In this document: positions 8,421 through 31,269 of the stretch, piece after piece | Numbering within the stretch: the stretch's first letter is position 1 | How the letters are laid out: the number at the start of each line of letters is the position of its first letter | Source of the DNA: Methanomicrobiales archaeon HGW-Methanomicrobiales-2 | GTDB lineage: Archaea > Halobacteriota > Methanomicrobia > Methanomicrobiales > Methanoculleaceae | Assembly: GCA_002839645.1 (NCBI GenBank) | Contig: PGYL01000023.1 | Span: forward strand, 1 to 61,725 | Length of the DNA: 61,725 nt | Direction of reading: 5' to 3' | Notes under the pieces: generated by a model | Database searches by the model: none | Told to the model about the DNA's origin: nothing | The model's input: the letters and a program-made list of their open reading frames with translations, nothing else | Position numbers and translations under genes: made by a program

Positions 8421-9030
8421 TGGAAGGGGGCGGTGCCCGGGCGTTGCCGATGGGAGACCGTGCCCCCGGCCACACATCATTTTTCCCAGTGTCTCCCCAT
8501 ACAGTGGACCGTGGGGATATCGCCACTGGGGGAGGAGCTGACGGGGAGGGGGTTCCCCCCTCCCCTGTCTCCATCGTGTAAAGTTCTCTCCTCGTAAGCC
8601 CCACCCCGCCCGCGCTTCGCGCTCCTCCCCCGCCCCCCTGGGCGGGGGCAGTGCGTGGCGATACCCGGGGAAAAGCCGTGCCCCGGGGGCATGCATCGTT
8701 TTTCAGTATCTCCTCATAGCGGGGGGTGTCGCTACTGGGGGGAGGCTCGCCCCTCGCCTGTCTCCATCGTGTAAAACTCTCTCCATTTGCAGCCCCCACC
8801 CCCGGGGCAGGGCAGTGCCCAGGTGTTGCCGGAGAGGAAGCCGTGTCTGGGGAGGGGAACCAGAATTACGCCTTTTCCAGTATCTTCCCATACACTGGAC
8901 CGTGGGGGTATCGCCATTGGGGGAGGCGGCTCGCGGGGAGGGGGGAGCATCCCCCCTCCCCTGTTTCCACCAATCTGGGAACTCTATAACCCCCACCCCA
9001 CCCGGCCTTCGGCCTCCTCCCCCGCCCCCA
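8421..9030 (+). repeat. Three degenerate tandem copies of a dispersed GC-rich repeat
   Basis: The 734-nt gap between cobA and ilvD is filled by about three head-to-tail units (roughly 8421-8641, 8642-8808, 8809-9030). Each unit has a GGCAGTG...CCGTG box, then CAGTATCTYCCCATACASTGGACCGTGG (two near-perfect copies, one decayed). TATCGCCATTGGGGGAGG and a GGGGAGGGGG/CCCCCTCCCC hairpin follow, ending in CCCCACCCCGCCCGG and GCCTCCTCCCCCGCCCC. TATCGCCA at 8518-8525 is mirrored by TGGCGATA at 8656-8663. Single copies of the same unit occur at 17610, 25573, 31035 and 61685. No credible coding sequence is seen: open frames across it are compositional. Confidence 0.85.
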
Positions 9031-25572: not shown

Positions 25573-25765
25573 CCCCATGCACGGCTTTCCAGGGAATATC
25601 GCCACGCACTGCCCCCGCCCCACGGGGCGGGGGAGGAGACCGGAGGCCGGGTGGGGTGGGGGCTAGAGGTATCCCTTATGAGTTGGAGACAGGGGAGGGG
25701 GGATGCTCCCCCTCCCCGTCAGCCCCTCCCCCCATGGCGATACTCCCACGGTCCAGTGTCCCGGG
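25573..25765 (-). repeat. Dispersed GC-rich repeat, reverse copy
   Basis: In the 608-nt gap between the marker-14 operon and argF lies one inverted copy: GCACGGCTTTCC, TATCGCCA (25597-25604), GCACTGCCCCCGCCCC, GGGTGGGGTGGGGG, the GGGGAGGGGG/CCCCCTCCCC hairpin, CCATGGCGATA (8-mer at 25735-25742), CCCACGGTCCAGTGTCCC. No gene is credible in the rest of the gap (25397-25572, 25766-25985). Confidence 0.8.
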
Positions 25766-28229: not shown

Positions 28230-28742
28230 TTATCCGTCCATCAGTTCGCTGACCCGCACAAGAGCATGAAGCGACGCGCCTTTTTCTGCAAGTGCCTCAT
28301 GGGCGCCTGCTTCCCGGTCAACGACGGTCACGACCAGGTCTACGTGCGCGCCCGCGGCACGCAGCGCCGCGAGGCCGTACAGGGCGCTCCCCCCGGACGT
28401 GGTCACATCCTCGACAAGCAGCACGTTTTTGCCGCTCACTTCGCCGATGATCGTGCCGGATTTACCGTGGTCCTTCTCCGCTTTCCTGATGATCGCGAAC
28501 GGCCGGCCGCTCGCGAGCGAGACGGCCACGGCGATCGGTACGGCGCCGACCGCCACCCCGGCCACCATATCGAACTCCCATTCTTCGGCAATGGCTTTTC
28601 CGATTGCGGAAAGGATGGCGGGCTTCGTCGTTGCGGCTTTGATGTCGATGTAGTAGGGGCTCTGAGCTCCCGATGCAAGGACGAAGTCCCCGAACTCGAT
28701 AGCCCCGCTCTCAAGTAACAGTGTCGCGATTGGGTTTACCAT
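28230..28742 (-). CDS. pyrE: Orotate phosphoribosyltransferase
   Basis: The 170-residue enzyme converts orotate and PRPP to OMP. The PRPP-binding motif is VLLVEDVTTSGGS, and the N-terminal FVLASGAQSPYYIDIKAAT and RKAEKDHGKSG loop match the family. Its start overlaps the end of carS by 7 nt, so it lies in the carS-pyrE-purD-argF run on the minus strand; the gap to purD is 25 nt. Confidence 0.95.
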   Translation of the reverse strand: MVNPIATLLLESGAIEFGDFVLASGAQSPYYIDIKAATTKPAILSAIGKAIAEEWEFDMVAGVAVGAVPIAVAVSLASGRPFAIIRKAEKDHGKSGTIIGEVSGKNVLLVEDVTTSGGSALYGLAALRAAGAHVDLVVTVVDREAGAHEALAEKGASLHALVRVSELMDG

Positions 28743-29299
28743 GGTACCTCTTTAACTCCGATGTAATAGCCGATAATGTTCACTACCCGGTGAAGGAGGG
28801 GCGTCATGATGATGATCCAGACTGCAATGGGTAAGGTAATATTCCCAAACAACCATTGGGGATAAACCAGGAGGATAAGCAGGAAGGAACCGACAACCAG
28901 GTCGTACTGATCGGCCAGGAACCAGGATTCGCCCCGCTCTTTACCCAGTCTCCGCTTCAGGTAACTCTTGACGAGATCGCCGAGGAGCGCGCCTGTCGCG
29001 AGCAGCGTAACGGAGATGAAGGTCTGGTAGGGGAGTGCGGTCAGGCTGAACGTGAACCAGGCCCAGATCTCGACGAGACCCGCCAGTATTCCACAGAGGA
29101 CACCCCCGAAGAACCCCCGGTAAGTCTTGCCGTCGCCGAAGATTCTTCTTCCGTCACCGGATCTCCTGCCAAAGTCGATGGGTGTCCCGCCGCCGAAGAG
29201 TGCGGCCGCTGAGTTCGGCACGTATGCCGGAATCATGATCCACAACGCCGCGAGCCCGGAGAAGATCCAGTATCCGACGTCTGCATCGATAAGCGTCAA
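28736..29299 (-). CDS. carS: CDP-archaeol synthase (CDP-2,3-bis-O-geranylgeranylglycerol synthase)
   Basis: This roughly 187-residue membrane protein (DUF46/CarS) activates unsaturated archaeol phosphate with CTP. Visible are a first membrane helix, PAYVPNSAAALFGGGTPIDFG, the conserved FGDGKTYRGFFGG loop, the GDLVKSYLKRRLGKERGESWFLADQYD catalytic region and further helices. No ATG is in frame at the front: TTG at 29299 or 29311 must start it. TTTATATT at about 29318-29326 (minus strand) places transcription start near 29297, favouring leaderless use of 29299. It is divergent from the tetraether synthase-like gene. Confidence 0.9.
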   Translation of the reverse strand: MTLIDADVGYWIFSGLAALWIMIPAYVPNSAAALFGGGTPIDFGRRSGDGRRIFGDGKTYRGFFGGVLCGILAGLVEIWAWFTFSLTALPYQTFISVTLLATGALLGDLVKSYLKRRLGKERGESWFLADQYDLVVGSFLLILLVYPQWLFGNITLPIAVWIIIMTPLLHRVVNIIGYYIGVKEVPW

Positions 29300-29314
29300 T
29301 ACACAGTACAATCA

Positions 29315-29330
29315 GTAAATATAAAGATTA
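29315..29330. promoter_or_regulatory. Shared divergent TATA region, carS and tes-like gene
   Basis: AAATATAAAG read on plus and CTTTATATTT read on minus occupy the same bases. They lie about 23 nt from the carS TTG on one side and about 55 nt from the plus-strand ATG on the other. Two lipid genes may compete for or share TBP binding here. Confidence 0.55.
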
Positions 29331-29378
29331 AAGTGTCGAAATATGAGATACGAATGAATAGGTGGGCACGGTGAGAGA

Positions 29379-30848
29379 ATGCTGATAAAAAAGACAAAGA
29401 GCCTCTGCCCAACATGTGGTCGCGTGCTCGACGCCAATATCGTTGAGGAAGAGGGGAAGGTCTGGCTGGTCCGTACCTGCCCTGAACACGGCGCGTATCG
29501 GGCCATCTACTGGTCGGACGCAGAGATGTACCGGAGGTTCGACGCCTACGAACGCATTGGGGAGGGAATTTCGAACCCGCGGAAGATCGCTTCCCTGGAA
29601 GGGTGCCCGAACGACTGTGGTATCTGTCAGAATCACCGGTCAACGACGCTGCTCGCGAACATCGACCTGACGAACCGGTGTAACCTCAACTGTGACTTCT
29701 GCTTTGCGAATGCCCGGGCATGCGGTTACATCTACGAACCGACCTTCGACCAGGTCATCGGGATGCTGCGCATGCTGCGTGAGGAGAAGCCCGTGCCGAC
29801 GCTCGCCGTCCAGTTTTCGGGCGGCGAACCGACGATGCGTGACGATCTCCCCGAGATCATCCGGAAAGCGAAAGAACTCGGGCTGTGCCAGGTTCAGGTC
29901 GCGACGAACGGCATCAGGCTCGCGCAGGAGCCCGACTACGCCGCGCAGCTGAAGGCGGCAGGGCTCTCCACCGTCTACCTGCACTTTGACGGCGTAACCC
30001 GCGAGACGAACTTCAAACTCGCGAGCGACCGGCGGGCCATAGAGAACTGCGAGAAGATAGGCCTTGGAATGGTGCTGGTGCCCACGGTCATCAAGGGCAG
30101 GAACGACCACGAGGTGGGCGCCATCATCAGGTATGCCGCGGAGCATATCAAGACCATCCGGGGCGTCAACTTCCAGCCGGTGTCGTTCACCGGGGCCGCA
30201 AGCGAGGATGATGTCAGGAAAGAGCGGATCACCATCCCGGAACTCACGAAGCGGATCGAGGAGCAGACGGACGGCGTGATCAAGCAGGACTACTTCTACC
30301 CCGTGCCCTGTGTCGTCCCGATCTCCGAACTTGTCGAGGCGTATACGGGCAAACCCCAGATCACGTTCACCACGCACCAGCACTGCGGCGCAGCGACCTA
30401 TGTCTTCGTCACCGACGAAGGTATGGTTCCGATCAACAGGATGGTGGACGTCGACGCCTTCTTCGAGTCGGTCGAGAAGATGGCGACGAAACTCGCGAAA
30501 GGCGGGTCGCTTAACAAATATATGACCCTTGTCGAGGGCGTCAAGGATCTCTACGGTTCCACGAGAAATGCGGAGCAGGCGAGCACCGGGGAGTTCATAA
30601 AGTTGATAGGAAGGACCCTCGTGAAGCAGAACTTCGAGGCTCTGCGCGAGTTCCACTGGAACGCCCTCTTTATCGGCACGATGCACTTCATGGACAAGTA
30701 TAACTACGATCTCTCCCGGGTGGAGCGGTGCTGCATCCATTACGCGACCCCCGATGGCCGCCTGATCCCGTTCTGCACCTACAACAGCGGCCCGGTCTAC
30801 CGCGAGCAGGTCTGGAAAGCCTTCGCGCAGCCCCAGAAGGACGAGTGA
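29379..30848 (+). CDS. tes: Radical SAM tetraether lipid synthase-like protein
   Basis: The 489-residue protein closely follows the MJ0619 type, now known as tetraether lipid synthase, which joins archaeol chains to make GDGT. N-terminal Cys10, Cys13 and Cys34 (LCPTCGR...RTCPEHG) fit a rubredoxin-like iron site. CPNDCGICQNH (Cys76, Cys80, Cys83) supplies an auxiliary cluster, and CNLNCDFC (101, 105, 108) is the radical SAM CxxxCxxC. GGEPTMR and HFDGVT follow. C-terminal Cys451, Cys452 and Cys466 (RCCIHYATPDG...PFC) fit another cluster. Location beside carS supports a lipid role. Substrate not proven here. Confidence 0.83.
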   Translation: MLIKKTKSLCPTCGRVLDANIVEEEGKVWLVRTCPEHGAYRAIYWSDAEMYRRFDAYERIGEGISNPRKIASLEGCPNDCGICQNHRSTTLLANIDLTNRCNLNCDFCFANARACGYIYEPTFDQVIGMLRMLREEKPVPTLAVQFSGGEPTMRDDLPEIIRKAKELGLCQVQVATNGIRLAQEPDYAAQLKAAGLSTVYLHFDGVTRETNFKLASDRRAIENCEKIGLGMVLVPTVIKGRNDHEVGAIIRYAAEHIKTIRGVNFQPVSFTGAASEDDVRKERITIPELTKRIEEQTDGVIKQDYFYPVPCVVPISELVEAYTGKPQITFTTHQHCGAATYVFVTDEGMVPINRMVDVDAFFESVEKMATKLAKGGSLNKYMTLVEGVKDLYGSTRNAEQASTGEFIKLIGRTLVKQNFEALREFHWNALFIGTMHFMDKYNYDLSRVERCCIHYATPDGRLIPFCTYNSGPVYREQVWKAFAQPQKDE

Positions 30849-31034
30849 CGGCCTGCCCAATACGGAGACGGGGAGGGTGTTGATCGACCCCTCCCCGGGC
30901 GGCTGTTTTATGCGATGATGTTCTTTCTCGAGTTCCTGTCGTTCGTGTCTGGCAATTTCTGCAGTCACACCGACACGGATTTCAAGGGGACTGCGCACCT
31001 TGCACCTGCGGTGCTCGTGCTCTCGCCTTTCGAC

Positions 31035-31195
31035 CGATCGCGTATCGCCACGCACTGCCCCCGCCCCACAGGGGCGGGGGAGGAGGCCGGAGGCCGGGCG
31101 GGGTGGGGCTACAGGTATCTCGTTAATGAGATAGAGACAGGGGAGGGGGGCATGCCCCCTCCCCCCATGGCGATAGTCCCACGGTCCACTGCACG
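31035..31195 (-). repeat. Dispersed GC-rich repeat, reverse copy
   Basis: In the 421-nt gap after the tes-like gene: TATCGCCA (31043-31050), GCACTGCCCCCGCCCC, GGCGGGGTGGGG, a short ATCTCGTTAATGAGAT palindrome, the GGGGAGGGGGG/CCCCCTCCCCCC hairpin, CCATGGCGATA (8-mer 31168-31175), CCCACGGTCCACTG. It lacks the outer CACGGCTTTCC box seen at 25573. No gene is recognised in the rest of 30849-31269. Confidence 0.8.
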
Positions 31196-31269
31196 GTGTC
31201 TGTCCTTATTTCGGTTGCGGCATTTCCGGCACCCACACCTGGCAGTGCTCACGCTCCGCAGGGCTGATG

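Follow-up and report, generated by a model that had tools for sequence, protein, structure and literature searches.

A gene for a radical SAM protein and the gene for CDP-archaeol synthase (carS) lie head to head in the window, the whole stretch of 61,725 nucleotides from Methanomicrobiales archaeon HGW-Methanomicrobiales-2 that was analyzed here. This arrangement raises the questions of whether the former gene encodes a true tetraether lipid synthase (Tes), whether both genes depend on a single promoter, and what such a promoter would bring about. The host genome comprises 2.78 Mb on 69 contigs, and its nearest relatives are members of Methanoculleus. Our results indicate that an authentic tes gene lies divergent from carS-pyrE, probably with one two-way BRE-TATA-BRE core between them, and that the two sides are likely to be expressed jointly. 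The features are listed in Table 1.

Table 1. Features of the carS-tes locus, with positions in the window
Feature	Positions	Strand	Basis
pyrE-like gene	28230..28742	-	ORF, named from sequence; overlaps the end of carS and is codirectional with it
carS (CDP-archaeol synthase)	28736..29299	-	PF01864, NF003114; TTG start at 29299
Divergent promoter core, no indels, nearly invariant	29300..29354		Aligned Methanoculleus sequences, about two dozen
Putative BRE-like AGTAAA before the tes TATA	29314..29319	+	Sequence, fits RNWAAW; spacing also inferred
Shared TATA element, AAATATAAAG (+) / CTTTATATTT (-)	29317..29326		Sequence
BRE-like TTTAAT before the carS TATA	29327..29332	-	TTAAT conservation; fits 5/6 positions of RNWAAW
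tes ribosome-binding site GGTGAG	29370..29375	+	Sequence; GGTGA kept without change in Methanoculleus
tes (tetraether lipid synthase; GDGT/macrocyclic archaeol synthase)	29379..30848	+	ORF, 489 aa
Rubredoxin-like Fe site C10xxC13...C34xxH37	29406..29489	+	Aligns with MJ0619 C9/C12/C33/H36 (PMC9433317)
N-terminal auxiliary [4Fe-4S] site C76-PND-C80-GI-C83 (CPNDCGIC)	29604..29636	+	Aligns with MJ0619 C73/C77/C80
Radical SAM CxxxCxxC, C101/C105/C108 (residues 101-108)	29679..29702	+	Sequence; aligns with MJ0619 C98/C102/C105
C-terminal auxiliary cluster region M435, C451, C452, Y455, C466	30681..30776	+	Aligns with MJ0619 M439, C455, C456, Y459, C470

The product of tes scored 746.3 bits against the NF045702 'tetraether lipid synthase Tes' profile, whose equivalog cutoff is 450 bits. 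Its best relative of solved structure was MJ0619, a GDGT-macrocyclic archaeol synthase (7tol; E=4.9e-158), with 51% identity over 476 aligned residues. The roles of the MJ0619 residues used for comparison were taken from PMC9433317, where Met439 and Tyr459 are described as completely conserved in 1000 homologs. The equivalents of both (M435 and Y455) are present in the tes product together with all of the metal ligands listed in Table 1, and H86, beside C76-C80-C83, would match the His ligand of MJ0619. tes is the sole copy above the NF045702 cutoff in the genome; no second gene there came near the Tes family score, and the other radical SAM matches span approximately 90 to 160 residues. Judged by these features, the enzyme is an authentic Tes of an already known kind. 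The closest known enzymes are MJ0619 of Methanocaldococcus jannaschii (7TOL/7TOM), with which it shares homology over the full length, the metal ligands and the equivalents of Met439 and Tyr459 (PMC9433317), and the Tes proteins of Sulfolobus and Methanosarcina (PMC8941075). The setting of the gene differs from that in Methanosarcina acetivorans, where the reported neighbors of tes are genes for ferredoxin and GGR (PMC8941075), whereas the gene in the window is paired divergently with carS.

In a maximum-likelihood tree of 47 proteins, whose midpoint root allows it to be read for grouping only and not as a dated history, the tes product fell inside a Methanomicrobiales Tes clade that groups with MJ0619. 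A sequence-only reading of this locus had called the gene tetraether synthase-like and had named the rubredoxin-like site, CPNDCGIC, CxxxCxxC and the CC...C set; profile score, structural match, alignment and tree agree that it is a genuine Tes, and each of these motifs was found and aligns with MJ0619. Grouping with non-Tes paralogs, which that reading had named as an argument against itself, was not seen in the tree. Its coordinates, 29299 to 30848, end correctly at the tes stop codon, but their left end is the start codon of carS, and the tes reading frame begins at 29379. The Tes proteins linked to carS formed one clade with support of 99/99, the exceptions within it being second copies and one locus of family f9. 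In the families that lie outside this clade, carS and tes are unlinked.

The tree and the profile searches also revealed unusual Tes-related genes. Four second copies from families f10 and f24 fell outside the Tes clade; these tes-like proteins (37-40% identity) form a clade of their own and behave as nonorthologous paralogs. A second true Tes, without carS beside it, is present in Methanoregula STB_131 (L047). In two genomes of family f9 (G201 and G248; loci L158 and L173), the tes match starts at profile position 102 within open frames of ~1035 aa, a pattern that the intein-containing Tes of NF045703 would give. One full-length Tes was found in family f14 (G224, L145), which is otherwise without tes in the sample. 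It recalls the unexplained halobacterial Tes homologs noted in PMC8941075.

The carS product exceeded the cutoffs of both family profiles (NF003114, 204.8 versus 148 bits; PF01864, 156.2 versus 22 bits), and the gene is present in a single copy in the genome. Downstream of TTG 29299, variation at the three codon positions among 21 relatives is 0.28/0.13/0.40, a protein-like pattern. We placed the start of carS at this codon because of this pattern and because relatives have in-frame stops upstream of it. Two other candidate starts were rejected: several relatives carry an in-frame stop between TTG 29311 and 29299, and ATG 29236, proposed by a crude gene finder, is ruled out by the codon-position variation and by conserved residues upstream of it. 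The two genes are indeed head to head, as had been read from the sequence, with 79 bp between their start codons. As in several other families, the single carS is followed by pyrE, and it differs from known CarS systems in its TTG start and in a transcript predicted to be leaderless. Of 71 testable Methanomicrobiales loci, 70 have pyrE after carS, as do several genomes with tes elsewhere; carS-pyrE is therefore probably the more ancient unit. CarS uses CTP, and a pyrimidine synthesis gene at its side plausibly makes sense.

We examined how far the divergent pair is kept. Our Methanomicrobiales set comprised 80 loci, five of which end too close to tes to be judged; carS is divergent from tes in 74 of the remaining 75. 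The sole exception, L047, is a second tes copy; it belongs to a Methanoregula genome in which the other one (L040) is linked. This agrees strongly with the sequence-only reading, which had named gene order in relatives as a check. The pair is also found in Methanospirillum stamsii (L070). In a wider count, which is a sample of one phylum only, carS and tes are divergent in families f7, f12, f15, f16, f19 and f20, with the exception of a single contig that stops short, and in half of the loci of f9; families f8, f10, f11, f14, f18, f22 and f24 had no linkage in the sample. Neither tandem nor convergent arrangements of carS and tes were found among the loci of Methanomicrobiales or of the phylum sample. 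The position of carS was determined independently of tes in 15 genomes. In 14 of these, all of the unlinked kind, it was not beside tes, which rules out short flanks as the cause of an unlinked tes; in the 15th (G263) it is linked and had already been counted as such. The simplest reading of this distribution would be a single joining of carS and tes, followed by occasional loss. Among the open-access papers that were searched, none mentions this linkage. What is new here is the head-to-head pairing kept over many families, while the enzyme and the promoter type are already known.

Among 21 Methanoculleus sequences, the block with the overlapping TATA elements is almost invariant, with many invariant columns, and indels are confined to the tes leader from approximately 29354 to the ATG, the length of which varies by several bases. 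The center of the core, AGTAAA-TATAAAG-ATTAAA, reads as BRE-TATA on the plus strand and as TTTAAT-CTTTATA on the minus strand. One TATA element with BRE-like flanks on both sides, conserved in Methanoculleus, is what a bidirectional core promoter calls for. The sequence-only reading had proposed that the TATA elements of the two genes overlap; both occupy the same bases within a rigidly conserved block, and the core promoters of carS and tes very probably overlap. Upstream of genes in this genome the preferred TATA sequence, from hexamer and octamer counts, is ATTTATAT (9 sense versus 1 antisense), and its best match within the core is on the carS strand. The distance from TTTATAT to TTG 29299 is shorter than the canonical one by a few bases. 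TTAATCTT may therefore be the carS box instead, or transcription may start inside the codon region; the exact carS box is uncertain. When a single mismatch was allowed to the pattern of the conserved block, the carS-tes site was the only one in the genome. With up to 2 mismatches there were 8 sites versus 5 for the reversed control, which gives no indication of a regulon carrying the same block in this genome.

Parts of the core can be followed beyond Methanoculleus. In Methanoculleus, TTAAT is found 27 nt ahead of the carS start, and the same spacing recurs in many Methanoregula-type loci and in many loci with Tes identity of only ~69%. A looser rule (TTAAT 18-32 nt before the carS start) is satisfied by 56 of 94 distinct Methanomicrobiales loci, a few of which are chance matches inside carS. 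In family f9, 6 of 12 linked loci have CGAAA-N14-TTTCG around one TATATC/TATAAT box, whereas another locus (L133) keeps the pair with a longer gap and two separated boxes. Methanomicrobium and Methanogenium loci have the same pair with much longer intergenic stretches. By this comparison, a shared TATA box is frequent among relatives without being required, and it cannot account for the linkage in general. Because some relatives that keep the pair have separate boxes, gene order is the more deeply conserved feature.

Other elements of the intergenic region were noted. An imperfect inverted repeat, GTRTC-N9-GATAC (29331-29351), is kept in Methanoculleus beside the inferred tes start, and its GTATC half is present in many other genera; it may be an operator. 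A short upstream ORF in the tes leader, ATGAGATACGAATGA, is not conserved. A sigma-70 scan was set aside as not applicable to archaea, and de novo EM motif discovery in ~180 upstream regions, for which gene starts were crude, returned coding-type GC motifs without a TATA box and was uninformative.

Archaea are already known to have bidirectional TATA promoters, and Warman et al. reportedly described bidirectional BRE-TATA-BRE promoters in 2021 (cited in PMC12825309). In the bidirectional promoters of Pyrococcus furiosus, a single near-symmetric TATA is flanked on each side by a BRE and the starts are 49-50 bp apart, and one such promoter was shown in vitro; TBP binds the TATA nearly symmetrically, and TFB sets the direction (PMC6640164). 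At the locus studied here, TBP would likewise bind the TATA, which is nearly symmetric, and the direction of transcription would depend on the side that TFB occupies. On the carS side, the constant spacing is consistent with a carS transcript that starts near TTG 29299 and has no leader or almost none. Constant spacing followed by a leader of variable length is consistent with tes transcription from near 29350, which would leave ~30 nt of leader. These starts, placed from conservation, would be ~50 bp apart. Because this spacing is that of Pyrococcus and because TBP and TFB behave as described (PMC6640164), both genes in Methanoculleus probably use one BRE-TATA-BRE core. In Pyrococcus, however, the second transcript was regarded for the most part as nonfunctional antisense RNA (PMC6640164), whereas here two conserved genes of one pathway face each other.

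A weaker candidate box on the plus strand, CGAAATATGAGATA (29337-29350), could be the box of tes itself. The two genes would then have separate adjacent promoters, with carS on TTAAT/TTTATAT and tes on CGAAATATGAGATA with a very short leader. The CGAAA there resembles an archaeal BRE, and Methanoculleus conserves the segment fairly well. This arrangement is nevertheless unlikely: the box varies (A/G and T/C changes), the segment is not kept in other genera, its distance to the ATG varies by several bases, and transcription would start in or beside the invariant GGTGA. That the linkage is a historical accident of general gene order conservation, without shared regulation, seems quite improbable. 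Gene order is stable within Methanomicrobiales, and carS-pyrE is conserved even with tes elsewhere, but the pair persists at 48-55% Tes identity over several families even as the downstream neighbor of tes changes (this neighbor being visible inside the fetched flank in 47 of 74 loci), and the promoter is more rigid than one gene would need.

The sequence-only reading had gone on to suggest a balance of tetraether content against archaeol synthesis, and this part is not supported. The phospholipids joined by Tes derive from the activated precursor that CarS supplies. The enzymes therefore act in series within one pathway, with CarS upstream, and joint expression is the simpler reading. MJ0619 acts on fully saturated archaeal lipids (PMC9433317). 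A shared promoter can lead to coexpression, competition or neither. Overlapping boxes bar assembly in both directions at once on one DNA molecule, and this raises the possibility of a reciprocal switch in which TATA occupied one way excludes the other, so that tetraether formation would rise when carS expression falls. We regard such a switch as very unlikely, although some reciprocity of expression is possible. Opposition would have no obvious benefit where CarS feeds Tes, relatives with separated boxes still keep the pair, and the absence of a regulator known to us for such a switch counts against it. Among E. coli bidirectional promoters, a side that is strongly activated can repress the opposite one, but at basal activity, too low for competition, none was measurable in the five promoters tested (PMC12825309). 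The preferred reading remains joint expression: with Tes joining the phytanyl tails of archaeal phospholipids, precursor supply by CarS and tetraether formation would be expressed together, most likely as the main consequence of the shared core, and the conservation of the pair suggests that both steps are switched on together. It is doubtful that the pair is a conserved regulatory module throughout a large Halobacteriota clade, in which the two-way core and its BREs, perhaps with a regulator at GTRTC-N9-GATAC, would set the ratio of diether precursor to tetraether.

Four Methanospirillum strains, members of the same order, contain 59-61% GDGT-0 among their core lipids (PMC11346949), and M. 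stamsii carries the same pair. On these grounds, the organism of the window likely makes tetraethers as well. The setting of the diether/tetraether ratio by archaea underlies GDGT-based temperature proxies. The promoter is short enough for dissection by point mutation and the pair is kept over many families, which makes transcriptional control of this ratio testable. Within the phylum, carS-tes gene order can also serve as a marker that tells true Tes from Tes-like paralogs.

Approximately 170 bp past the tes stop codon, at 31020-31210, lies a GC-rich interspersed repeat of ~150-190 bp that matched no Rfam family. Genome-wide it has 48 matches, of which ~40 are strong (75-94% identity); further copies in the window are at 25597-25758 and 8502-8667.
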